DNA from: Oleiharenicola sp.
Lineage (GTDB): Bacteria > Verrucomicrobiota > Verrucomicrobiia > Opitutales > Opitutaceae
Direction of reading: 5' to 3'
Length of the DNA: 64,000 nt
NCBI GenBank assembly: GCA_025363455.1
Contig: JANYDW010000016.1
Coordinates: 1 to 64,000 of the forward strand
Shown: piece by piece, positions 1 to 14,795 of the stretch
Layout: every line of letters starts with the position of its first letter
Numbering within the stretch: the stretch's first letter is position 1
The notes under the pieces: model-generated
Told to the model about the DNA's origin: nothing
Databases searched by the model: none
The model's input: the letters and a program-made list of their open reading frames with translations, nothing else
Translations under genes and position numbers: made by a program

Positions 1-61
1 ATGCCGCATGTCGGTGCCCGTCCTCCGACCGAAACCCGGGCGCGGTACGGCATAAAACGGG

Positions 62-265
62 ATGCGGCATAACGCCCGTTATACCGCATACGGCATAACG
101 GGTGATCCGGCACCTTCAGCGGCCGACGTGCAGGTGACCCGGCAACTCCGGGAAGCGGCTAGGACGGTGGACATCGAACTGCTGGACCACGTCATCATCG
201 GCCGGGCCGGGGCCGATCCCCGGGGTCGGGGATTCAGCTCATTCCGTGAGGCGGGCGTCCTGTAA
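62..265 (+). pseudogene. radC: RadC/JAB-domain protein, C-terminal remnant
   Basis: Translation TGDPAPSAADVQVTRQLREAARTVDIELLDHVIIG...FSSFREAGVL matches the RadC C-terminus; the HNHPSGDP metal motif is disrupted (HNARYTAYGITGDP). Confidence 0.7.
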
Positions 266-435: not shown

Positions 436-484
436 ATTTCGTTTGCAAGGTGATGCGTCTGACAGCATACCTTGCAAACGAAAT
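436..484. promoter_or_regulatory. 16-bp perfect inverted repeat overlapping the abiEi start (putative autoregulatory operator)
   Basis: ATTTCGTTTGCAAGGT (436-451) / ACCTTGCAAACGAAAT (469-484), with inner ATGC/GCAT pairing; the right arm reaches into the likely ATG at 483. Confidence 0.7.
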
Positions 485-1301
485 GAGCGACCCCGCAGAG
501 CCACGAAACCGTCAGACCAAAGCAGCCGCAGCATTTGTCGACGAACAGCTGAAAGTCGGTCGCGTCGGTTTTCCAATGTCACAGTTGCTAGAAGCGACCG
601 GTCTGACGCCGGAAGCGGCCAAGAGTCAGCTGCGCCGCCTTGCGCCTCGCGTAGCCCGGGTTTCGGTGGCGCATCCCTTCTTCCTGATCGTAACGCCCGA
701 AAACCAGTCGACCGGCGCCCCCCCGGTCGAGTGGTGGCTCGATGACTATTTCGCTTGGCTCAAACATCCTTACTATTTGGCCCTCCAATCCGCGGCGAGT
801 GCCCTCGGCTCCAGTCCCCAATCCATCCAAGTGACGCAGGTGATGACGGACACGGCCCGCCGGCCCATCGAACTCGGACGCTTGAAGATTATTTTCTTCG
901 TAAAGCGCCGCATCGGCCGCACGCCGACCCAACAACTGCTGAACGCCTTTGCGCCGACCCGCGTGAGCACGCCTGCCGCCACAGCCTTCGACCTCGTCCG
1001 CTATGCCCCGCGAATCGGCGGCATCGGCCGGGTGATCGAAACCCTCCGGCCACTCTTGTCCCAGATCCACGGGCCGGAGTTGCGAGAAGTGCTCGAATCC
1101 GAAAACGAAATCGCCACCGCCCAGCGCCTCGGCTTTGTCCTCGAAAAAACCGGGCAAACCAGGCTCGCCTCCCTCGTGGAAAAATGGCTGCCCGGCAAAC
1201 GGCCACTCACCCCGCTCGTTCCCGCGCCGGCCGGCCGGCCGGGGGCGCCCCTTGCGGCGCGCTGGCGTGTCGTCGACAACTCCGGAGAATTTAACCCGTG
1301 A
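483..1301 (+). CDS. abiEi: AbiEi-like antitoxin (type IV TA)
   Basis: ORF 450-1301, likely start ATG 483; N-terminal wHTH-like region, GTGA overlap with a downstream AbiEii-family nucleotidyltransferase. Confidence 0.7.
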   Translation: MSDPAEPRNRQTKAAAAFVDEQLKVGRVGFPMSQLLEATGLTPEAAKSQLRRLAPRVARVSVAHPFFLIVTPENQSTGAPPVEWWLDDYFAWLKHPYYLALQSAASALGSSPQSIQVTQVMTDTARRPIELGRLKIIFFVKRRIGRTPTQQLLNAFAPTRVSTPAATAFDLVRYAPRIGGIGRVIETLRPLLSQIHGPELREVLESENEIATAQRLGFVLEKTGQTRLASLVEKWLPGKRPLTPLVPAPAGRPGAPLAARWRVVDNSGEFNP

Positions 1302-2143
1302 ATCCACTGACCCGCCGCGACGTACTCGCCCATCAAGCCGTGGTTCCCTGGCCCAACCAGCGGCAGGTCGAACAGGACCTGCTGCTGTGCCGCGCCATGG
1401 CCGCACTGTTCAATGACAAGTTTCTCCTCAGCCAGATCGCGATGCGCGGCGGCACCCTGTTGCACAAGGTGCATCTCGCCCCGGCCTCCCGCTTCAGCGA
1501 GGATATCGACCTGGTCGTCTTCGGCGACCGGCCCGAGGGCCATATCGAGGCCGCGATCCGGCGGGTGCTGCGCGACCAGCTGGGTGAACCGACAGACAGC
1601 ATTTGGGACGACCTCAAGCTGGCGATCAGGAATTTCGCGAAGCCTTCGCGGGTGCTGCGCCTGACCTACGAGGTTCCGTCGGTGAGCGCAGCCGGCCCGA
1701 ACATGGTCATCGTGGTCGAGGCCAATGTGACCGAACGGAAGCCCCACCGCGAAATCGTACAAAACCCCTTTGAGTTTCCGTTCCAGGGGAGCCCGGTGCA
1801 GGCGGTGCTTAACGGCTACGACCTCCATGAAATGCTCGGCACCAAGATGCGCGCCCTGTTTCAACGCAAGCGCGGGCGCGATCTCTTCGACCTGTATTGG
1901 GCACTAATAGCCGACAATCCGAAGGTCGACCCGGCCCTCGTCATCGACTCCTTCCTGCACTACCTCAAGCAGGAGGGCGGCAGCGCCGCCCGCGCCGAAT
2001 TCATCGGGATTCTCGATTCGCATCTGGCCGACCCCGGCTTCTGTTCCGACATGGAGCAACTCCTGCGCGTCGGCTTATCCTATGATCCCCAGCAGGCCGG
2101 CGCATTCGTGAAAGAACGCCTCTTGGGACTGCTGCCGAAGTAA
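1298..2143 (+). CDS. abiEii: AbiEii/AbiGii-family nucleotidyltransferase toxin
   Basis: Motifs GGTLLHK...RFSEDIDLVVFG and KRGRDLFDLYWAL typical of AbiEii (DUF1814). Confidence 0.85.
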   Translation: MNPLTRRDVLAHQAVVPWPNQRQVEQDLLLCRAMAALFNDKFLLSQIAMRGGTLLHKVHLAPASRFSEDIDLVVFGDRPEGHIEAAIRRVLRDQLGEPTDSIWDDLKLAIRNFAKPSRVLRLTYEVPSVSAAGPNMVIVVEANVTERKPHREIVQNPFEFPFQGSPVQAVLNGYDLHEMLGTKMRALFQRKRGRDLFDLYWALIADNPKVDPALVIDSFLHYLKQEGGSAARAEFIGILDSHLADPGFCSDMEQLLRVGLSYDPQQAGAFVKERLLGLLPK

Positions 2144-2245: not shown

Positions 2246-3130
2246 TCAGCGCAGCTGCTGATCGAGCGTCCGCAACTTCGTCAAGGTGGAGGGGTTCACC
2301 GAGAGCCATGTGATCATGCCATAGGCGGTTTTCATAGCTTCCTCCTTGACGGGCAAATCTCGCTCGCTGCCGTCGAACACGCCCGTGAACCATTGCGACA
2401 TTACGGATGCGCTTTCTCTGATGTCCGGGGACGGCTTCACCGCTTCAGCCAAAGCCACGGCGGTGGCCGAACCAGCAACGGGCGTCGGCAACTTTTTCAC
2501 AAAGATGAACCCGTATTGGCGCAAAGCGGCCGAAACGACGAACCATGGCTCTTTGCCGTCGCGCCACACGACGAATGCGCAGGGATGAGTCAACGAGTCC
2601 TCGAATCTGCGCGCCGTGCTCTGCAGGGAGGTTCCCAACTCGTTCGCAGTCCTGCGCATGGCCGCCAAACCGAAGCCCGTGCGTTCAATCACGGCTCGAA
2701 AGCGCACCTCAGGCATGAGCACCCGTGAGGCGAAAAAATCGGCTTCGACTTCCACGTAGAGTTTCGCATTCGCCTTGTTGCAAAATGACGGATGGTGCGG
2801 GGCGACTCCGCTGCAAAGCGCCGCATGGTGCTCGGGAATCAGATAGTGAGCCAGTTCGTGGGCGAGGGTAAAGCGTGCGCGGCCTTCATGGCGCGGACCG
2901 CAACGCTGCACGTTGCAATAGACGTGGAAAGTTCCGTCCTCATGGTGGAGCATGCCATCAAAATGTGGCCCATAGTTGTCGTAGCTGATAGCCTCGAACT
3001 GGCCGGCGGCGGCCTTGATCTGCTCCGACTGCGGCAGCTGGCGCAGCGCCGACGGATGGCCCGCGGCGGCCATGGAGGCGGCGGTGGCGTTGGCCGTGGC
3101 GTGGACGGAACTGACAGGGGCGACGGGCAT
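2246..3130 (-). CDS. Chimera: FlgJ N-terminus fused in frame to ImmA/IrrE-family metallopeptidase
   Basis: Residues ~1-48 (ALRQLPQSEQIKAAAGQFEAI) resemble the FlgJ rod-binding start; the remainder has RARFTLAHELAHYLIPEH (HExxH) and EVEADFFASRVLMPE typical of ImmA/IrrE. Confidence 0.75.
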   Translation of the reverse strand: MPVAPVSSVHATANATAASMAAAGHPSALRQLPQSEQIKAAAGQFEAISYDNYGPHFDGMLHHEDGTFHVYCNVQRCGPRHEGRARFTLAHELAHYLIPEHHAALCSGVAPHHPSFCNKANAKLYVEVEADFFASRVLMPEVRFRAVIERTGFGLAAMRRTANELGTSLQSTARRFEDSLTHPCAFVVWRDGKEPWFVVSAALRQYGFIFVKKLPTPVAGSATAVALAEAVKPSPDIRESASVMSQWFTGVFDGSERDLPVKEEAMKTAYGMITWLSVNPSTLTKLRTLDQQLR

Positions 3131-3133
3131 GGG

Positions 3134-4315
3134 CTAGTTGATAATGAGCTCGGCCTGGAGGGCGCCGGAGCGTTTCAGGGACTGGAAGATCGCCATCATG
3201 TCCCGCGTGGAGACGCCGAGGGAGTTGAGGGCGGCGGCGAGCCGCTCGATGCTCGGGGGATCGTTGAGGATGGTGAAGCCGCCCTTGCCCTCGTTGACGG
3301 AGGTTTGCGTGCTGTTGACCGAGGTGGTCTGGCCGGAATTGTTGAAAGAGTTGGGCTGGCTGACACCCTGGTTGCTCGTCACCGTGATCGTGAGCGAGCC
3401 GTGGGCGATGGCCACCTGCGAAAGGCGAACCGTGGACGTGGCGACAATGGTGCCGGTGCGCTCGTTAATGACGATGCGCGCCAGGGTGTCCGGCTGGACT
3501 TCGACGGTGCCGAGATCGGCCAGGAAGGTGACGTCGTTGCCGCGGTATTCCGCGGGCAGGCTGACCTTGACCGTGGCGGCGTCGATCGCGTGGGCCGAAG
3601 CGGGGAACTTGGTGTTGATGGCATCGGCCATGCGGGCAGCCGAAGTGAAGTCGGGATTGCGCAGCAGGAGGCGCAGGTTGTTGTCGCGCACGAATTCCGC
3701 GACAATCTCACGCTCGACGATGGCGCCATTGCTGATGCTGCCGACCGTCGGGTGATTTTTCTGCACCGTGGCGCCACCGGCACCGCCGGAGCCCCCGATG
3801 AAACCGCCCACGGCGACGGGGCCTTGCGCGACGGCATAAACGCGGCCGTCGGCCCCGAGCAGGGGGGTCTGGAGAAGGACGGCGCCTTGCAGCGTCTTGG
3901 CGTCACCCATGGCGGCAATTGTGACGTCAATGCGCGCGCCGGGCTTGAGGAAGGGTCCGATGTCGGCTGTAATCATGACGGCGGCGACATTCTTGGCCTT
4001 GATGTCGGTGGGCGAGACCGTGAGGCCGTAGCGCTGGAGAATGTTGGACACGGCGTGGAGCGTGGACGCCGCGTTGCTGTCCCCGTCGCCCGCGAGGCCG
4101 ACCACGAGCCCGTAGCCGACCAGTTGATTGTCGCGTCCACCTTCGACGAGGGTGATGTCCTTCACGCGCATGGCGTGGAGCGAAGGGCTGAAGAGCTGAA
4201 GGGCGGAAAGACTGAGGAGGAAAAGGCAGCAGGAGCGAAAAGCTGAACGACGGAAAGAAGCCGACCACCAAGCGGTGAGGCGGAAAGTCGGGAAATTCTG
4301 CGTCCGTGCATTCAT
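3134..4315 (-). CDS. flgI: Flagellar P-ring protein FlgI
   Basis: MRVKDITLVEGGRDNQLVGYGLVVGLAGDGD and C-terminal PPSIERLAAALNSLGVSTRDMMAIFQSLKRSGALQAELIIN. Confidence 0.95.
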   Translation of the reverse strand: MNARTQNFPTFRLTAWWSASFRRSAFRSCCLFLLSLSALQLFSPSLHAMRVKDITLVEGGRDNQLVGYGLVVGLAGDGDSNAASTLHAVSNILQRYGLTVSPTDIKAKNVAAVMITADIGPFLKPGARIDVTIAAMGDAKTLQGAVLLQTPLLGADGRVYAVAQGPVAVGGFIGGSGGAGGATVQKNHPTVGSISNGAIVEREIVAEFVRDNNLRLLLRNPDFTSAARMADAINTKFPASAHAIDAATVKVSLPAEYRGNDVTFLADLGTVEVQPDTLARIVINERTGTIVATSTVRLSQVAIAHGSLTITVTSNQGVSQPNSFNNSGQTTSVNSTQTSVNEGKGGFTILNDPPSIERLAAALNSLGVSTRDMMAIFQSLKRSGALQAELIIN

Positions 4316-4342: not shown

Positions 4343-4984
4343 TCAAAACGGCCGGAGCTTCTCGTAGAGCTTCGAAAGCCAGCCGCGCTTTTGAGCCTCG
4401 GTCAGGGTGCCATCGCTGACGAACTCCACCCGCGCTTCGGCAATGTTGGTGGACAAGATGGTATTGTCGGCGCTGATATCCGCCGGCCGCACCAGGCCGT
4501 GCAGGATGACATGCTGCGTCTCGCCCGAAAAGGTGACCATGCGGGCGCCCTCGATGACGAGGTTGCCGTTGGGCAGTACGTCGGTAACGAGCACGGCCGC
4601 GCGAGCCGTCAGGCTCTGGGAATTGTTGACCGAGCCGCCGCCTGAGAAATTGGACTTGCCCTTGGCGCTGCTGGCGGGGAGCTCGCCGTTATGAGTGAGC
4701 AAGCCGCTGGCGGCCTTGCTGAAGATGAACTGGCTGATGGCATCCTCGAGGCTGGACTCCCGGCTGGAGGATTTGGTCTGCGCGCTGGTGGCGTTGGCGG
4801 ATTCTGCCACTACGACCGTTAGAATATCTCCGGCGCGCGAGGCCTGGCGGTCAGCCGTCATGCCGCGCTCCACCCCGGTGCCAGTTGGCCACAACGAGCC
4901 CGCGCCCACGACCGGAGAGGTCGCGAGGAGCAGCGCGGCGAGGCCGGCGACAAGATTAGAAGCGGACCTGGACATGGTTTTCAT
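4343..4984 (-). CDS. flgH: Flagellar L-ring protein FlgH
   Basis: SLWPTG...DRQASRAGDILTVVVAESANAT, GNLVIEGARMVTFSGETQHVILHGLVRPADI; likely start at 4984. Confidence 0.93.
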   Translation of the reverse strand: MKTMSRSASNLVAGLAALLLATSPVVGAGSLWPTGTGVERGMTADRQASRAGDILTVVVAESANATSAQTKSSSRESSLEDAISQFIFSKAASGLLTHNGELPASSAKGKSNFSGGGSVNNSQSLTARAAVLVTDVLPNGNLVIEGARMVTFSGETQHVILHGLVRPADISADNTILSTNIAEARVEFVSDGTLTEAQKRGWLSKLYEKLRPF

Positions 4985-5759
4985 CAACGACGAAGGCGGT
5001 AAAATCCTTGCGGGATTCGATATTGCGGAGCGTGACAGCCTCACCCTGGGCACCGCTCTGGAGGGCGATCGCCTTCATGGTGATGGAGAGGTTGCCCTCG
5101 GCGGCGCTGACCTCGACCATATCGCCTTTGCGGACCAGCGGTCGGCGGGCGATATCGCGCCAGGTGATCACGCGGCCGGTGTTGACCCCGCGGGTGAAGA
5201 GAAAGGTCTGGTCGCCGGCGGTGGCGGGCAGCGCATCGCGCTCGCGGAAAAGATCCACCCGGCGGGACTCGAGCAACGCGGGATCGAAGACGGCGCCCGT
5301 GGTGACGGGCTGGCGGGTCACCCAGGCATCGCGCCACAGGGCGGCGCGCAGCGTCAGGGTCAACTCGCCGGCGGCAGCTCCATCCGCCACGAGGCGGCAG
5401 CGCACCATCATTGCAGAGGCAGCGACGGAGGGAAATTCGGTGATGACCATCTGCCAGTCGGTGGCGGTCAGCGCGGGGGGCGTCCAGGCGCGGAGCAACT
5501 CCAGCTGGAGTTCGCCCTCGAGGTTGAAGTGCGCGGTGAGCTCGCGGGTGAGTGCGGCCGCGCAGGCCTCCTGAGTGAGCGGGACCCGCGCTGCCGGGGT
5601 GGCGTCGGTGCTGGCAGCCGCGCGGGCGGAATGGCTGAAAAGCTGAAGGACCGAAAGGCTGAGAAAAAGGCTGAAAGAGCGAAAAGCTGAAGGGCGGAAG
5701 AAGGTAAGCCAGCAAGGAACAAGGCGGAAAGTCGGGAAGTTGTGGGTCCGTGGATTCAT
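4956..5759 (-). CDS. flgA: Flagellar P-ring assembly chaperone FlgA
   Basis: SAF-domain region GRVITWRDIARRPLVRKGDMVEVSAAEGNLSITMKAIALQSGAQGEAVTLRNIESRKDFTAFVVDENHVQVRF; position between flgG and flgH. Confidence 0.9.
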   Translation of the reverse strand: MNPRTHNFPTFRLVPCWLTFFRPSAFRSFSLFLSLSVLQLFSHSARAAASTDATPAARVPLTQEACAAALTRELTAHFNLEGELQLELLRAWTPPALTATDWQMVITEFPSVAASAMMVRCRLVADGAAAGELTLTLRAALWRDAWVTRQPVTTGAVFDPALLESRRVDLFRERDALPATAGDQTFLFTRGVNTGRVITWRDIARRPLVRKGDMVEVSAAEGNLSITMKAIALQSGAQGEAVTLRNIESRKDFTAFVVDENHVQVRF

Positions 5760-5800
5760 GTTCAGCTATTCAGTTCTTCAGCTTTTCAGCTTTTTTTGCC

Positions 5801-6583
5801 TCAGCGTTTCAGGTTGGCGACGTTCTGGAGCATTTCGTCGGAGGCCTGGATGGACTTGGAGTTCACCTCGTAGGCGCGCTGGGCGACGATTAGGTTCACC
5901 ATCTCTTCAACGATATTGACGTTGGAGGCCTCGACATAGCCCTGGATGGTGCGGCCGAAGCCTTGCTCGGCCGGGTTACCCGACTCGGGTGTGCCGGAGG
6001 CGGCGGTTTCCTCGTAGAGGTTGCCCCCGAGCGAGCGCAGTCCGGCGGGATTGGAAAAACGCGTCAGGTTGAGGCGGAAAGACTGGGTGCCGCTGGAGGT
6101 CTGCACGGTGACGGTGCCATCCTCGGCCACGGCGACCGAGCTGGCGCCGGCGGGGATCGGCTGGAAGCCGCTCAGGACCGGCAGGCCGTCGATCGTCACA
6201 ACCTGGCCCTGGGCATTGGTCTTGAAGGAACCGTCGCGGGTGTAGGCGAGTGTGCCGTCGGCGCGCTGGATCTCGAAGAAGCCATCGCCCTGGAGGGCGA
6301 TGTCGAGCTTCTCGCCGGTGTTGGTGAGCTGACCCTGGGTGAAGACCTTGGAGGTGGACGCGACGCGCGCGCCATTGCCGATCTCGATGCCGGTGGGAAC
6401 GATGTTGCCGCCGCCCGAGTCGGAGCCCGAGGCACGGGGCTTCTGGTAAAGCAGGTCTTGGAACTCGATCTTGCTGCGCTTGAATCCCGGGGTGTTCACG
6501 TTCGCCAGGTTGTTGGCGATCGTGTTGAGGTTGAGTTGCTGGGCCTCCATGCCGGTGGCGGCGGAGTAGAGCGATAGGTTCAT
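5801..6583 (-). CDS. flgG: Flagellar distal rod protein FlgG
   Basis: LYSAATGMEAQQLNLNTIANNLANVNTPGFKRSKIEFQDLLYQ ... EVNSKSIQASDEMLQNVANLKR. Confidence 0.96.
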   Translation of the reverse strand: MNLSLYSAATGMEAQQLNLNTIANNLANVNTPGFKRSKIEFQDLLYQKPRASGSDSGGGNIVPTGIEIGNGARVASTSKVFTQGQLTNTGEKLDIALQGDGFFEIQRADGTLAYTRDGSFKTNAQGQVVTIDGLPVLSGFQPIPAGASSVAVAEDGTVTVQTSSGTQSFRLNLTRFSNPAGLRSLGGNLYEETAASGTPESGNPAEQGFGRTIQGYVEASNVNIVEEMVNLIVAQRAYEVNSKSIQASDEMLQNVANLKR

Positions 6584-6802
6584 GCGCGGGAGGGGTTGAG
6601 GAAATTCATCCGCATCACGACTGGGGCCGGCCCGGCCCCATACCGGGCGCGGCCATGCAGTCGTGATTGCGGTTGTCTATATGGGGAAGTCATGTGGGAA
6701 AGGGCTGAAAGACGGAAAACTGAAGGGCTGAAGCGCAGATGTTCGGGGATGTCGTAGGTGTAGTCGTTCAGCTTTTCAGTCATTCGGTTCTTCAGTCATT
6801 TG

Positions 6803-7552
6803 TCAGCCTAGGGCCTCGAGGGCCTTCTGCATCTGCTGGTCGATGGTCGTGATCATCTTCTGGTTGGCCTCGTAGGCGCGGGAAATGATGACGAGGTCGA
6901 CCATCTCGCGGAGAGGCTGGACGTTGCTCTGTTCCAGATAACCCTGCATCAGGTCGGGCTGCTCGACCGGGGTCATGTTGGCGCCGTTGCCAGCGCTAAA
7001 CATGCCGCCCGCGGTGGGTATGAGCGCGGCGGTGTTGGCGAATTTCTGGATGGAAAGTTTGCCGAGGGACGTGCTGCCTTGGAAAAGAGTACCATCCTGG
7101 TTGACGTTGACGGTTCCGGCACCGGGCAGGAGTACAAAGGGGTCACCATTGGTATTCATGACCTCGAGGCCCCCGGAGGTCACCAGGGTGCGATCAGGCC
7201 GCAGCCGGAATTCACCGCTGCGGGTGTAGCCCATCGTGCCATCGGGCAACTTGATCTCGAAGAAGCCGTCGCCTTGGATGGCGATGTCGAGTTCGCGGCG
7301 GGTGGGCATGGTCTCGCCCGAAATATAGTTGATGCCCGCGGAAGTCTTGGGAAACACCGCCGGCGTGCCCGCATCATGGCCGAGCTTGGAATGACTGTCC
7401 GGATGGATTTCACCGGCCGTCTCCGTGCTGAACTCGATGGTCCGCTTCCGGAAACCGGTGGTCTGCGCCGAGGTGATATTCTGGGATACATTGTCCTGCC
7501 AGCGCTCCAGGGCGGCGAGCGATGCGGCACTTTGATAGAGGCCAATGTTCAT
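6803..7552 (-). CDS. flgF: Flagellar proximal rod protein FlgF
   Basis: Flagellar hook-basal body protein, shorter than FlgG; DIAIQGDGFFEIKLPDGTMGYTRSGEF...REMVDLVIISRAYEANQKMITTIDQQM. Confidence 0.9.
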   Translation of the reverse strand: MNIGLYQSAASLAALERWQDNVSQNITSAQTTGFRKRTIEFSTETAGEIHPDSHSKLGHDAGTPAVFPKTSAGINYISGETMPTRRELDIAIQGDGFFEIKLPDGTMGYTRSGEFRLRPDRTLVTSGGLEVMNTNGDPFVLLPGAGTVNVNQDGTLFQGSTSLGKLSIQKFANTAALIPTAGGMFSAGNGANMTPVEQPDLMQGYLEQSNVQPLREMVDLVIISRAYEANQKMITTIDQQMQKALEALG

Positions 7553-7566
7553 GTTGACCCCGGTTT

Positions 7567-7582
7567 AGCACCGCTGATGCCA
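7567..7582 (-). promoter_or_regulatory. Candidate sigma-54 promoter upstream of flgF
   Basis: Minus strand TGGCATCAGCGGTGCT: GG-N10-GC spacing, close to TGGCACG-N4-TTGCW; unusually close to the start codon. Confidence 0.4.
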
Positions 7583-7703
7583 ATCGATATTCGCCTCACT
7601 TTAACCACTTGTCTGCAGTGACTTAAATCTTTCTGAGTTTTCACTCCAGGAGGCCGCCCACCTCCCCTGCTCCACCCCGGCAATTCTTGCCCGCAATCGG
7701 ACC

Positions 7704-7922
7704 TCAGCTCCCGGCCGGATAAAGGCACTCGACCTCGACCTTCTCGCCGCAGGCGCAGGTGACGATGATGCGCATGACCTTGTCGCCCTGCTTCACGACC
7801 TCAACCGACGGACCCTCGGCGGCGGGACGGGCGGCTCCGGTCGGCGCCACTGCCTTGTGGACGTGGGGGGCGCGCAACGGGGCGGCATCAAGGGTACGCT
7901 TACCAGTTAGAAAGGGTTTCAT
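7704..7922 (-). CDS. Small conserved-looking protein in the flagellar cluster (VTCACGEKVEVECLYPA)
   Basis: 72-aa ORF in the flagellar gene block, same strand, just downstream of motB. Confidence 0.5.
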   Translation of the reverse strand: MKPFLTGKRTLDAAPLRAPHVHKAVAPTGAARPAAEGPSVEVVKQGDKVMRIIVTCACGEKVEVECLYPAGS

Positions 7923-7932
7923 GATGAAAGGG

Positions 7933-8838
7933 TCAGTGAGTACCTGAGGCGAGGGTTGGTCTGCCTTCGCGCAAAGGGCTTCCGCCTTCGCTCAGCTTCG
8001 ACGAGACATGTCGGCGAGGTTCGTCCGGCGGCGAGGCCCCAGGCGAAGCGGGTGGCGGGACCTGCGGCTGGACCGCCGGCACCGAGTTGCCCTTGGCGGA
8101 ATTGCTCTTGCTGACGGCCAGGCTAAGCGTGATGCGCTGGTTGGACTCGGAAGCCGGGTTTTCATTGGGCAGCGGACGGGTGGCGGCAAAACCGGTGACA
8201 CGCTCGATCAACCCAGGCTCCACCGCATAATACACGAGCTTGCGCCGGGCGGCGTTGGCGCGATCCGAGGATAGCTCCCACGCGGTGTAGTCCTCGCGCT
8301 TCAGGGCGAGGCCCTCGCGCGTGTGCCCGTCGATGGTCACGCGGAAATGATGCCGGTCAATAAGCCAGGCCATGGATTGCATCAGGTGGACGCCCCAGTC
8401 CGTGAGTTCGGCGGAGTCGCCCTTGAACATCGGCTGCTTGGACCGGTCGTAGAGCGTGATCCGTAATCCATCCGAGGTGACCTGGATATCAATCGGTTTT
8501 TGGTCGAGATTCTGGTCGAGGTGCAGCAGGCGGTAAAAGTCGGCGGCCACGGAATTGAGGAAACTGAGCTCGATGTGCTTGTCGTTGTTCTTCGCCTTGA
8601 CGGCGGACTGCTCCGACTTGCTGCTGCTGCTGCTGTTGTTGTCGCCCTGCTTGTTGAAAGGCATGATACCCGAATGATCCACCAGCGGGGACGAAAACGG
8701 GTTCTGGAAATACTTGGAGGTCGCGATGAGGATTTCCTTGTCCTGCGCCGAGATCCACAACACGAGGAAAAGCGCCATCATCGCGGTCATGAAGTCCGCG
8801 AACGCCACTTTCCAGGCTCCTCCTCCGCCGGCGCTCAT
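7933..8838 (-). CDS. motB: Flagellar motor protein MotB
   Basis: MSAGGGGAWKVAFADFMTAMMALFLVLWISAQ TM/plug region plus OmpA-like C-terminus (VTIDGHTREG...ELSSDRANAARRKL); start refined from 8892. Confidence 0.92.
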   Translation of the reverse strand: MSAGGGGAWKVAFADFMTAMMALFLVLWISAQDKEILIATSKYFQNPFSSPLVDHSGIMPFNKQGDNNSSSSSKSEQSAVKAKNNDKHIELSFLNSVAADFYRLLHLDQNLDQKPIDIQVTSDGLRITLYDRSKQPMFKGDSAELTDWGVHLMQSMAWLIDRHHFRVTIDGHTREGLALKREDYTAWELSSDRANAARRKLVYYAVEPGLIERVTGFAATRPLPNENPASESNQRITLSLAVSKSNSAKGNSVPAVQPQVPPPASPGASPPDEPRRHVSSKLSEGGSPLREGRPTLASGTH

Positions 8839-8850
8839 GATGGGAAAAAG

Positions 8851-8958
8851 GAAGAAGGAGGAATTAAGAATGAAGAAGCCGAACCACTCCATTCGAGCGA
8901 TCCGACCGCAAACCGGCGGGTCTGTGCTTCTTCATTCATCCTTCTTAATTCTTAATTA
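8851..8958. repeat. Imperfect inverted repeat between motB and motA
   Basis: GAAGAAGGAGGAATTAAGAATGAAGAA (8851-8877) opposite TTCTTCATTCATCCTTCTTAATTCTTAATTA (8928-8958). Confidence 0.7.
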
Positions 8959-9810
8959 TTTGCCAGAGCCCAGCCCCTTGACGGCGGTCTCCAGCTCCTC
9001 GGCGCCGGGCTGGACGGAGCTGTCGAGGGAGCGGCGGGCGACCTCGATGGCGGTGAGCGGGGCGAGGCCCTTGGCGAAGCCGGCGACGGCGTGCATGATG
9101 CAGTTCAAGAACAGCATCTCCGAGGCGTTGTTGGAGCGGATGCGCCCGGCGAGCGGGTTGACGAAGCCGTAAGCGCAGAAAATACCCAGCATGGTGCCGG
9201 TGAGCGCCGCGGCCACCTTTTCGCCGACCACCTCCGGGCCCTCGGCGATGGCGGACATGGTGTTGATGATGCCCAACACGGCCGCAACGATGCCGATGGC
9301 GGGAAGCGAGTCTCCGATCATCTGCATGGCGTGCACGGGGTGATCCATCTCGACTTCCTTGGCCTTCAACTCGGCCGCCATCAAGTCCTCCAACTGGTCG
9401 GGCTTGATCTTCCCGTCGATGACGGGCTTGAGGCCGTTCACCAGGAAAAGCAGTCGCTCGTGATGGGCCAGCACACTGGGGTATTTTTGGAAGAGCGTGC
9501 TTTTGGTGGGTTCCATCACGTGTTCCTCGAGAGCGATGAGGCCGTTGCGGCGGCCCATCATGAAGAGCTCGTAGAGCAGCTTCAACACGTCAAAGAAGTC
9601 CTTCTTGCCGGCGATCTTGCCGGCCAAGGCGTCCTTCGTCTTGTGGATGATCTCGACGCGGCGCGGGTTTCCCGTGGTGTCATCGCAGGCGGCGCGAGCG
9701 ATCGCCAGGGCATTGAGCGCCCCGTCGAACAGCATCAGCACGAGCTGGCCCGGGCTGGCCGTGAGGATGGAGTTGGCACGGTACGCCCGCGCGTAGTCCT
9801 GGGCGTACAT
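8956..9810 (-). CDS. motA: Flagellar motor stator protein MotA
   Basis: PVHAMQMIGDSLPAIGIVAAVLGIINTMSAI...VAAALTGTMLGIFCAYGFVNPLA. Confidence 0.94.
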   Translation of the reverse strand: MYAQDYARAYRANSILTASPGQLVLMLFDGALNALAIARAACDDTTGNPRRVEIIHKTKDALAGKIAGKKDFFDVLKLLYELFMMGRRNGLIALEEHVMEPTKSTLFQKYPSVLAHHERLLFLVNGLKPVIDGKIKPDQLEDLMAAELKAKEVEMDHPVHAMQMIGDSLPAIGIVAAVLGIINTMSAIAEGPEVVGEKVAAALTGTMLGIFCAYGFVNPLAGRIRSNNASEMLFLNCIMHAVAGFAKGLAPLTAIEVARRSLDSSVQPGAEELETAVKGLGSGK

Positions 9811-10241: not shown

Positions 10242-10905
10242 TTATCGGGGGGGCAGGGTGTGAAACATGATCGCGGCAGCCACGGCGCCGAAGCGCGTCG
10301 GGCTCTGGAGCACGGCGGGGGGTGGAATCGACCGGAGCCAGCCGATCGCCCTCCCGGTTAAATTGGCGGACACTGTTGACCATTTTGTCATCCGCCGCCG
10401 AAAAGACCTCGTCAAAGGCCCAGATCAGGCGGACGTCACGGACTGTGGCCAGCTTGGCCCGCAACCCGAGGGTGAGCGGCCGGTAGGCGTGCAGAACCGT
10501 GAGGTCGGTGAACAGCACGGCGTCGACGGCGTACTTCTCCGCAAGCTTCTCGAGAAATCCATGCGGGAGCGCCGCCGTGGAGGCGAAGTCACCGGCCCCG
10601 AATAGGTGCGCACAGTCCTCCCGGGACACGACCACGACCTCGAAACGCATTTGCCGCTGCAGGGTGGTCAGCAGCACGGGATCCAAGGCCGCGGTGATTT
10701 CCGCGGACGCCGCCTCGCCACCGTGGAGAGGCAGAAGGGCAATCCGCTGGATGTCCGGGGCCAGCTGAGCGTCGCCCCGGAAATTCACCGGGGTCAAGAG
10801 CGGGCGCGCCTGCTCCCCCTCGAGCCAGGTGGGCAAGGAGGCGCAGCCGGTGACCGCGGCCAGCAGGGAAGTCAGCACGATGGGCAGGAGAATTTTGATC
10901 TTCAT
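10242..10905 (-). pseudogene. Lipoprotein, apparent +1 frameshift in a G6 tract
   Basis: Lipobox LLAAVTGCASLP; removing one G at 10317-10322 restores ...VDSTPAVLQSPTRFGAVAAAIMFHTLPPR*. Confidence 0.6.
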
Positions 10906-12641
10906 CTTTTGCTGGAGCTTGAGCCGGACCCGGATCCGACACCAAAGGCGTTCGAGATCGTCTGGCTCTGTTGCTGGATCTTGGATTGGGCCGACTCCAT
11001 GGCGATGAAGCTGTTGGTGAGTAGCTCACGTTGCTGGGTGAGCCGGCGCTCCATGTCGGCGATTTGCGTGTCCAGGGCGCTGTTGGTCTTGGCCAACCGG
11101 TCCTGGGAGTCGCTGCCGGAATGGATGAGCTTGCCGACCAGCGTGTCGAACTTGGCGGCGAAGCCCGTGCTGGAGGTGTTGAAGAATTTCTCCAGGTCCG
11201 TGGGGTGGTCGGCGAGGGCGGCGTCGAGCTTGACGGAATCCTTGATCGACATCTGGCCGTCTCGATCGAGGTCGAGCCCGAAGTCGCTGATCTGCTTGAT
11301 CGTGTCGCTCAGGCCGGGGATGGTGTTGAACGCCAGCGAGCGCATTTGCCGGGCCCAATCCTGCACGTCCCGGTTGCTACTGAGGACGGAAGTGGTGACC
11401 TTGCCGTTGGTCGAGGTGATCTTGCTCTTGTCGTCGATGTAGGACTGCACGGCATTGTAGGCCGAGAGGAAATCCTGGATCTTGGCGCGCATCTTGGCGG
11501 TATCGGCGGCGACGGTGATGGTCTGGGTGGTGGCACTATCCACCGTGACCGACAGCCCGGCGATGCCATGGGCCGTGCCATCCAGCGTGTTGCTGGCGCT
11601 GATCAGCGTGGGCCCGCCGTCGATGGAATACTCGGCGTTCTTGCCGCTCACCGCGGTGTAGCCGCTGGTCAACCGCAGGGCGCCGAGCAAACCGCCGGCG
11701 GACTCGCTGAGCGTGATGCCGAGATCGCCGGTCGTGTTGTTGGCGAGAACCACGCGGTCATTCACCGCGTCGTAGGACCCGGTGACCCCCGCGCTCGAGG
11801 CGTTGATGCGTTTGAGCACCGTGCTCATGGAGTCGGTGTTGACGTTGTAGGCGATATCCACGCCATTGATGCTGAAGGTACCCGCACCCGCTCCGTCGAC
11901 CGCGGTGATGGCGGTTTTCAGGCCCGCCGTGGCAAAAGGGGTGCTGACACGCGCTGTGCCCAACTTGCCGTAGCTGGCGACCGTGTCGGTGCCATTGTTA
12001 GCCAGCTTGAGGACCTGCAGGAAATTGCTGGTATCGTTCGCTGCGCCCAGAGTGATCGTCGCATTGCTCGCGCTGGCCAAAGTGATCTTGTCGTCCGCCG
12101 CGCTATAGGTGGCGGTCACATCGTTGCCGGTCGCGGTGTGGATGGCGTTGAAGACGTCCTCCAGCGTGTCGGTGGTGGCGACGGTGATCGGGTGACCGTT
12201 GACGGTGAACTTGCCCGCGGTAACCACCCCGGCCGTGCGCATGGTGGCCAGCGTAACTCCGGCGACGCTGTCGGTAGCGCTGATCCCACCCGTGATATCA
12301 ACGACTCCATCGCGGCGCGCCTTGGTGGCGACCTGGCTGACCGCGATAGCGTGGCTGCCCGTGGCGGTGCCCGAGGTCGAGGCCAGGGTCCAGGTCGAGC
12401 CGGTCGTGCCCGAAACGGTCGTGCGGCCCGAAAACAGGGTCTGGTCCTTGATGTTGGTCACCGCCGTTTGGAGGGCGGTCAATTTGGTTCCGAGACCCTT
12501 GATGGCCGCGGCTTGCTGGTCATTCTTGTCCTGCTCCCGCTGGATCCGGTCCACCGGGGCATGCTCGAGCTGCATCAATTGGTCGACGAGCGACTTCCAA
12601 TCGAGGCCAGAGGCGAGTCCTGAGAGTTGTAAGCCTGCCAT
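10902..12641 (-). CDS. fliD: Flagellar hook-associated protein FliD (filament cap)
   Basis: MAGLQLSGLASGLDWKSLVDQLMQLEHAPVDRIQ...; C-terminal ALDTQIADMERRLTQQRELLTNSFIAMESAQSKIQQQSQTI. Confidence 0.95.
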   Translation of the reverse strand: MAGLQLSGLASGLDWKSLVDQLMQLEHAPVDRIQREQDKNDQQAAAIKGLGTKLTALQTAVTNIKDQTLFSGRTTVSGTTGSTWTLASTSGTATGSHAIAVSQVATKARRDGVVDITGGISATDSVAGVTLATMRTAGVVTAGKFTVNGHPITVATTDTLEDVFNAIHTATGNDVTATYSAADDKITLASASNATITLGAANDTSNFLQVLKLANNGTDTVASYGKLGTARVSTPFATAGLKTAITAVDGAGAGTFSINGVDIAYNVNTDSMSTVLKRINASSAGVTGSYDAVNDRVVLANNTTGDLGITLSESAGGLLGALRLTSGYTAVSGKNAEYSIDGGPTLISASNTLDGTAHGIAGLSVTVDSATTQTITVAADTAKMRAKIQDFLSAYNAVQSYIDDKSKITSTNGKVTTSVLSSNRDVQDWARQMRSLAFNTIPGLSDTIKQISDFGLDLDRDGQMSIKDSVKLDAALADHPTDLEKFFNTSSTGFAAKFDTLVGKLIHSGSDSQDRLAKTNSALDTQIADMERRLTQQRELLTNSFIAMESAQSKIQQQSQTISNAFGVGSGSGSSSSKR

Positions 12642-12670
12642 AGTAGGAGCGGGGACACTGCCCCACCCCT

Positions 12671-12697
12671 TCATCGGCCACCCCCGGGGGAAGTTTA
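12671..12697 (-). promoter_or_regulatory. Sigma-28 (FliA) promoter for fliD
   Basis: Minus strand TAAA-N15-GCCGATGA (7/8 match to the -10), ~30 bp upstream of the fliD start. Confidence 0.7.
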
Positions 12698-12850: not shown

Positions 12851-12954
12851 TTGCCCTGCCGCGAATCAGAACCAAGGCCGGACCGCCCAGGAGCCGTTTT
12901 CTCCCGGGCCGAATGCGACACGGACGTCGCAAATTAAAATCAAGGAAGATCACC

Positions 12955-13767
12955 ATGTCAGTCGTCATCAACAGCAACTTCGCCGCGACCGTCGCGTCGA
13001 ACAACCTCGCCGCCTCGAACGATATGCTCCAAAAGAGCATGAACCGTCTCTCGAGCGGAACGAAAATCGTCAACCCCGCGGACGATGCGGGCGGCCTCGC
13101 CGTCTCCATGAAATTGTCCGCCGCGGCCAAGCGCTCCGGCGCCGCTGCCAGCAACATCGGTAACTCGGTCTCATTCCTCCAGTCGCAGGATGGCGTCCTC
13201 AAGGTCGCCGGCAAAGTCCTCGAGCGCATGGGCGAACTGCGGACCCTGTACGATGATCCCACCAAGAACAGCAACGACAAGGCCAACTACGATTCCGAAT
13301 TCGTCGCCCTGCAGAGCGAGCTGAGCTCGCTGACGAGCAACACGTTCAACAGCGTGGATCTCTTCGGCAGCGGCAGCCTCTCGGTTTCCGTCTCGGAAGA
13401 CGGCTCCTCCGCGGTGACGATCACTGCCAAGGACCTCGCCGACTCCGCCGCCGGCATCGGCACGCTCACCGATACCGCCATCGCCAGCCTGGCCGGAGTC
13501 ACCCTGAGCGACATCACCGACGCCATCCAGAACGTGGCGACCTTCCGCGCCAACAACGGCGCCGAGCAGAGCCGCCTCGGCTTCGCCCAGGAGGTCCTCA
13601 CGGTCAACAAGGCCAACCTCGAATCCGCCAACAGCCGCATCATCGATGTGGACGTGGCCGAGGAATCCACGCGACTCGCGCGTTGGAACGTCCTCGTCCA
13701 GGCCGGCACCGCCATGTTGTCGCAGGCCAACCAGAGCGCCCAGGTCGCGCTCAAGTTGCTCCAGTAA
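12955..13767 (+). CDS. fliC: Flagellin (270 aa)
   Basis: MSVVINSNFAATVASNNLAASNDMLQKSMNRLSSGTKIVNPADDAGGLAVS... D0/D1 signature; C-term NVLVQAGTAMLSQANQSAQVALKLLQ. Confidence 0.96.
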   Translation: MSVVINSNFAATVASNNLAASNDMLQKSMNRLSSGTKIVNPADDAGGLAVSMKLSAAAKRSGAAASNIGNSVSFLQSQDGVLKVAGKVLERMGELRTLYDDPTKNSNDKANYDSEFVALQSELSSLTSNTFNSVDLFGSGSLSVSVSEDGSSAVTITAKDLADSAAGIGTLTDTAIASLAGVTLSDITDAIQNVATFRANNGAEQSRLGFAQEVLTVNKANLESANSRIIDVDVAEESTRLARWNVLVQAGTAMLSQANQSAQVALKLLQ

Positions 13768-13980: not shown

Positions 13981-14795
13981 ATGTCAGTCGTGATTAACTC
14001 CAACTACGCGGCCACGGTTGCCTCAAACAACCTGTCTGCCTCGAACTCCATGCTGCAGAAAAGCCTTAACCGGCTTTCCAGCGGTTCGAAAATCGTCAAC
14101 CCGTCCGATGATGCGGGCGGTCTCGCTGTGTCGATGAAGCTGTCTGCCGCGGCCAAGCGCTCGGGCGCCGCCGCCAGCAACATCGGCAACTCGGTGTCGT
14201 TCCTGCAGTCGCAGGACGGCGTCATGAAGGTTGCCGGCAAGGTTCTCGACCGCATGAGCGAGTTGAAGACCCTCTACACCGACCCGACCAAGAACAGCAA
14301 CGACCTCGCGAACTATGATTCCGAGTTCACCGCCCTGAAGAGCGAGCTCAGCTCCCTCTCACCAGCGAGACGTTCAACAGCGTCTCCCTGTTCGGCAGCT
14401 CTGACCTCGCGGTCAACGTCTCCGAAGACGGCGCCCAGAGCGTGACCCTCACGGGTCGCGACCTGTCCGGCACCGCCAGCGGCGTCGGTACCATCACCGA
14501 CACGGCCGTTGCCTCGCTCGCCGACATCAACCTGAGCGACATCACCGATGCGATCCAGAACGTGGCCACGTACCGCGCCCAAAACGGCGCCGAACAGAGC
14601 CGCCTCGGCTTCGCCCAGGAGGTCCTCACGGTCAACAAGGCCAACCTCGAATCCGCCAACAGCCGGATCACGGATGTCGACGTCGCCGAGGAGAGCACCT
14701 CGCTCGCCCGCTGGAACATCCTGGTCCAGTCCGGCACCGCGATGTTGGCTCAGGCCAATCAGAGCGCGCAAGTCGCCCTGAAGCTCATCGGCTAA
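13981..14795 (+). pseudogene. fliC: Second flagellin, 2-nt frameshift at CTCTC (14356-14360)
   Basis: ORFs 13981-14445 (frame 1) and 14442-14795 (frame 3) are the two halves; deleting 2 nt restores 270 aa, the same length as flagellin 1. Confidence 0.85.

Follow-up and report, generated by a model that had tools for sequence, protein, structure and literature searches.

How does a bacterium come to encode a zinc peptidase at the place where the flagellar gene flgJ should stand? In the window, by which we mean the whole stretch of 64,000 nucleotides of Oleiharenicola sp. DNA analysed here, the gene flgI is followed by one uninterrupted reading frame, 294 aa long and on the minus strand (3130-2246, stop codon counted), which begins as FlgJ and continues as an ImmA/IrrE-type protease. 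The sequence-only reading of this DNA took the frame for an in-frame FlgJ::ImmA/IrrE chimera at the flgJ position, joined at about 2986. Herein both parts of the frame and the genes around it (Table 1) are compared with related genomes; the genome itself is a fragmented assembly of 83 contigs, 94.94% complete.

Table 1. Features around the fused frame, with positions in the window
Feature	Position	Strand	Basis and remarks
radC 3' remnant	48..265	+	near contig end; named RadC by eye
AbiEi antitoxin gene	450..1301	+	Pfam
AbiEii toxin gene	1298..2143	+	Pfam; convergent with the fusion
ImmA/IrrE (PprI/CapP-type) metalloprotease part	2246..2989	-	about 246 residues; HELAH and ExE present
Fusion junction	2986..2989	-	4-bp microhomology ATCA; relatives' flgJ and DNA alignment to G333 immA
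FlgJ-derived 5' part	2987..3130	-	residues 1-48; match to relatives' FlgJ
flgI, intact, directly upstream of FlgJ::ImmA	3134..4315	-	PF02119, 3.5e-125
flgH, flgA, flgG, flgF, intact	4343..7552	-	
motB, intact	7933..8892	-	
FliS::MotA in-frame fusion ORF	8956..9810	-	FliS residues 1-~58, then the last 232 residues of MotA; joined somewhere in about 9654-9640
fliD, intact	10902..12674	-	
Flagellin gene 1, intact	12913..13767	+	
Flagellin gene 2, frameshifted near 14350	13981..14789	+	G016 homologue intact

A chimera of two intact parents

The 5' and 3' parts of the frame have separate intact parents, namely the flgJ genes of four same-genus genomes (G007, G020, G016 and G003) and the immA gene of G333, a genome of a different genus in the same family (Opitutaceae). 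Residues 1-48 are 82, 67, 64 and 62% identical to the FlgJ proteins of the four genomes in that order, which have 107-112 aa and are encoded directly after flgI in each; for the protease half, a search of 373 genomes of the order gave as nearest relative an intact 296-aa protein of G333 (80% identity). Since each half has strong homologues of its own, the chimera is not a product of chance, and the homologues confirm the description given by the sequence-only reading. Its estimate of the join is confirmed as well. The relatives' flgJ reads GAGGC(C/G)ATCAT where the window has GAGGCTATCAGC, and a convincing alignment of the G333 immA DNA with the window starts only at ATCAGCTACGAC; this comparison puts the junction at 2989-2986, on four bases that both parents read in one codon phase (Ile); the junction peptide is AAAGQFEAISYDNYGPHFDG. 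Both parents are cut at the join: ImmA has lost about 50 residues of its N-terminus, and FlgJ about 60 of its C-terminus.

The FlgJ of Opitutaceae is a rod-scaffold protein without a muramidase domain, and the fusion has in common with it the first 48 residues, the start codon and the coupling to flgI. These residues are mostly N-terminal to the rod-binding domain and barely reach into it, so that, unlike in FlgJ, the domain is gone after its first residues, and the rod-binding profile PF10135 has no match in the fusion. The frame starts 3 nt past the flgI stop and the flgJ-type start is conserved, so the protease does stand behind the start signals of the flagellar operon, as had been proposed. 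The proposal that FlgJ function is lost also holds, in that a genome-wide search found neither a second FlgJ or rod-binding protein above the PF10135 cut-off nor the 3' half of flgJ. No FlgJ N-terminus was found on the other ImmA relatives, which occur in 13 of the 373 genomes of the order and at 17 loci of a GTDB-wide scan, nor did we find a relative with flgJ and immA near each other.

The protease half without its partners

The 3' part is derived from an ImmA/IrrE (M78) metalloprotease of the PprI/CapP type and is predicted to fold well. It matches PF06114 with E = 5e-9 (36.5 bits against a cut-off of 22), and the HExxH zinc motif and the downstream Glu ligand (H91, E92 and H95 with E127/E129) are invariant in 18 sequences. 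CapP and PprI are DNA-damage-linked proteases that cleave repressors. Foldseek leads from the predicted fold of the fusion to CapP and IrrE/PprI with E of about 1e-9, and the best PDB sequence match is CapP (E = 7e-6); with these proteins (PDB 3dti, 8sln, 7t5t) the fusion has in common the fold over the whole protease part, HExxH and ExE, and a C-terminal sensor-like domain. Unlike them, it has low-confidence FlgJ residues in place of the N-terminal helical segment, and a cognate partner gene was not found with the one query used. Block-mean pLDDT is mostly 86-96 from residue 51 and below 50 for residues 1-32, while the intact G333 protein is predicted with 89.5 overall and with a firm N-terminal helix that is absent from the fusion.

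In G333 and other Opitutaceae, immA is located behind a sigma-factor-like gene and a gene of about 118 aa, divergent from a multiubiquitin-E2-E1/JAB operon, where E1 and JAB are assigned by Pfam and the sigma-like, multiubiquitin and E2 labels are our own reading; the sigma-like and 118-aa proteins of G333 have no Pfam match. This trio beside the multiubiquitin operon (G333, G059, G014 and G384) is the home context of the closest protease relatives, but none of those neighbours was found in the present genome, where a single query against the whole genome gave no native ImmA partner genes.

Missing genes and a second scar

In the relatives, flgJ is followed by FlgN, FlgK and FlgL, and a profile search of 12 relatives placed FlgK some 1 kb past flgI in every one of them (the G005 copy is split over two contigs). 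In the present genome the 3' part of flgJ, flgN, flgK and flgL are absent from the whole assembly in DNA and protein searches, and the FlgK profile has no match.

Moreover, a second fusion, FliS::MotA, is located 6.5 kb from FlgJ::ImmA. Pfam finds FliS at residues 8-58 (profile positions 2-51 of 115) and MotA_ExbB at 122-232, and the join lies around GAGATCATCCACA, where the parents are alike and in codon phase. In G016 these parents stand on one strand in one neighbourhood, about 45 kb apart (C2:283861 and 238201), and in G003 about 40 kb apart. The interval in G016 holds flhA, flhB, fliR, fliQ, fliM, flgE, flgD, fliI, fliF, fliE and rod genes, together with a sigma-70-type factor and a CheA-like kinase. 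Five of its genes were searched genome-wide, and FlhA, FliF, flagellar FliI, FlgE and FlgD are all absent from the present genome, the sole matches being weak ones to other ATPases and to FlgF/FlgG; the five are present in relatives, some of them partial in the fragmented G007 and G020. At both fusions, genes that would stand between the parents are missing, so that the core and the hook-filament block of the regulon are both gone, and an in-frame scar would mark each deletion.

The accessory tail of the contig

On the far side of the fusion, the contig (C55) begins at window position 1, 3 kb from the flgJ junction. The AbiE toxin-antitoxin system said to adjoin the chimera is there, with Pfam matches for AbiEi (PF09407, 6e-21) and AbiEii (PF08843, 1e-25). 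As for the radC remnant proposed beside it, the radC-like fragment (about 48-261) matches many genomes at the DNA level; its identity as RadC was assigned by eye. The immA part is derived from accessory DNA, to which the AbiE genes and the radC remnant adjoin. An inverted repeat, TTTGCAAGG...CCTTGCAAA, detected by self-match at 436-484 at the start of the AbiEi gene, is a candidate operator of that gene. An overlap of this tail with contig C16 by assembly was considered and rejected, as the two have only a radC-like match of 73%.

Probable origin of the fusion by deletion

With a probability of roughly three in four, we consider the fused frame to be born from a deletion, one of two large ones by which the flagellar regulon was recently dismantled. 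The first would have run from about codon 58 of fliS into motA, removing about 45 kb by comparison with G016; the second would have begun at codon 48 of flgJ, taken out flgN-flgK-flgL and stopped within immA in an accessory region, immA having presumably stood downstream and in the same orientation until then. Both would have been joined at short codon-phase microhomologies, leaving FliS::MotA and FlgJ(1-48)::ImmA(~51-296) in frame, and both probably belong to the living genome rather than to faults of assembly. The AbiE genes and the radC remnant on the far side indicate that the second deletion ended in accessory DNA. If transcription of the old flagellar operon persists, the flgJ start may serve for translation of the fusion, which retains the zinc-peptidase and sensor-like domains; having no native partner genes, it has in all likelihood not yet acquired a selected role. 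FlgJ::ImmA is thus mainly a trace of recent motility loss and not a purpose-built gene, and the orphan protease started from flgJ signals is most simply a passenger.

The explanation originally offered for the chimera was that an accessory island carrying immA, AbiE and radC had landed inside flgJ, in which case the rest of flgJ together with flgN-flgK-flgL would lie on an unassembled or unbinned contig. The adjoining AbiE genes and radC remnant speak for such an insertion, and with the contig end no more than 3 kb away the far flank lies beyond the assembled sequence; for this reason the insertion keeps a small share of the probability, although it is unlikely. Against it, the join cuts through ImmA, and the partner genes upstream of it are absent, so that this edge is no natural end of an element; none of the four missing pieces (flgJ 3', flgN, flgK and flgL) is present in a genome that is 94.94% complete; and the FliS::MotA scar reveals deletion acting in the same regulon. 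Because both parents are truncated, the downstream flagellar genes are gone and a second deletion scar exists, deletion is preferred over insertion, and the landing of an island inside flgJ is not supported.

Less probable still is a false joining of reads or contigs from two organisms or loci, as might be suspected in a fragmented, metagenome-type assembly with the flgJ junction close to a contig end. At the join the parents have no more than about 4 bp in common, much less than the k-mer of an assembler, and the contig is without N and has no repeated 21-mer at either junction. In tetranucleotide composition the 3-kb tail is ordinary for the contig (a deviation as large or larger is seen in 79 of 98 windows), and both of the independent in-frame joins go together with the genome-wide absence of genes.

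The least probable account, which is compatible with an origin by deletion and could hold on top of it, is a working new gene, that is, a partner-free protease sensing ssDNA or stress, made from flagellar signals and kept by selection once motility was lost: the join is in frame, the flgI-coupled start is conserved, and the catalytic and C-terminal sensor-like domains are intact as judged from motifs and predicted fold, but an in-frame join is expected by chance one time in three, both junctions fall on microhomology that is in codon phase, the protease has lost its native 50-aa N-terminus and all its partner genes, and the fusion was found in no other genome (373 genomes of the order; 17 GTDB-wide loci). 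A balanced rearrangement, with a reciprocal frame of the ImmA N-terminus and the FlgJ C-terminus, is rejected, as the ImmA N-terminus and partner genes have no match in this genome.

State of the flagellar regulon

This cell is not expected to be able to assemble a flagellum, and the loss of motility, raised by the sequence-only reading as something that may have happened, can now be called very likely, with no second FlgJ copy found. With G016 as outgroup, ten remaining flagellar genes or gene parts have 155 amino-acid and 298 synonymous changes found only in this genome, and 154 and 264, respectively, found only in G007 (Fisher p = 0.44). There is hence no overall sign of relaxed constraint in this comparison, which fits a recent loss, and from these counts the flagellar loss looks recent; amino-acid changes are raised in this genome for fliD and p267, and so are synonymous ones. 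Another way to read the intact and unrelaxed genes is that the cell still has flagella and the missing genes are merely unassembled. In the genus at large, FlgI is absent from 9 of 20 genomes, which implies that flagellar loss recurs. For annotation, the intact-looking flgFGAHI operon is poor ground for calling this bacterium flagellated.

Relation to known deletion-born fusions

It has been described that deletions fuse gene fragments and that the new ORF spreads with the deletion (Kaul, Rossine, Brinda and Baym 2026, preprint, PMC12803068), for example yjcO-lysU in the LTEE, and acrR-glcD and mlaE-htpX in the split of M. tuberculosis and M. bovis. According to that study, its examples from the M. 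tuberculosis complex are without catalytic domains, and a clear new beneficial function was not found. The present case probably belongs to this documented kind, in which a large deletion fuses the beginning of one ORF with the final part of a second one that reads in the same direction, and the fusion rides on the deletion. It is unusual in two respects, as one lost system has given rise to two fusions, each at a deletion of its own, and one of them, FlgJ::ImmA, retains a complete-looking enzyme core. It offers a fresh case in which deletions removing a costly system can mint new ORFs, as well as a natural test of whether deletion-born fusions get expressed and kept.

A recurring protease locus in Opitutaceae

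Apart from the fusion, the trio and the divergent multiubiquitin/E2-like/E1/JAB genes form a locus that recurs, at L067 (the G333 locus, 4891-9396), L068 (6514-11066), L041 (538-5143), L042 (4567-8759), L069 and L112. This recurring locus is possibly a defence system of ubiquitin-like type under the control of the protease. Very large helicase/methylase-like genes adjoin the multiubiquitin loci (L067 9621-14798; L042 11-3997), which suggests mobile elements.
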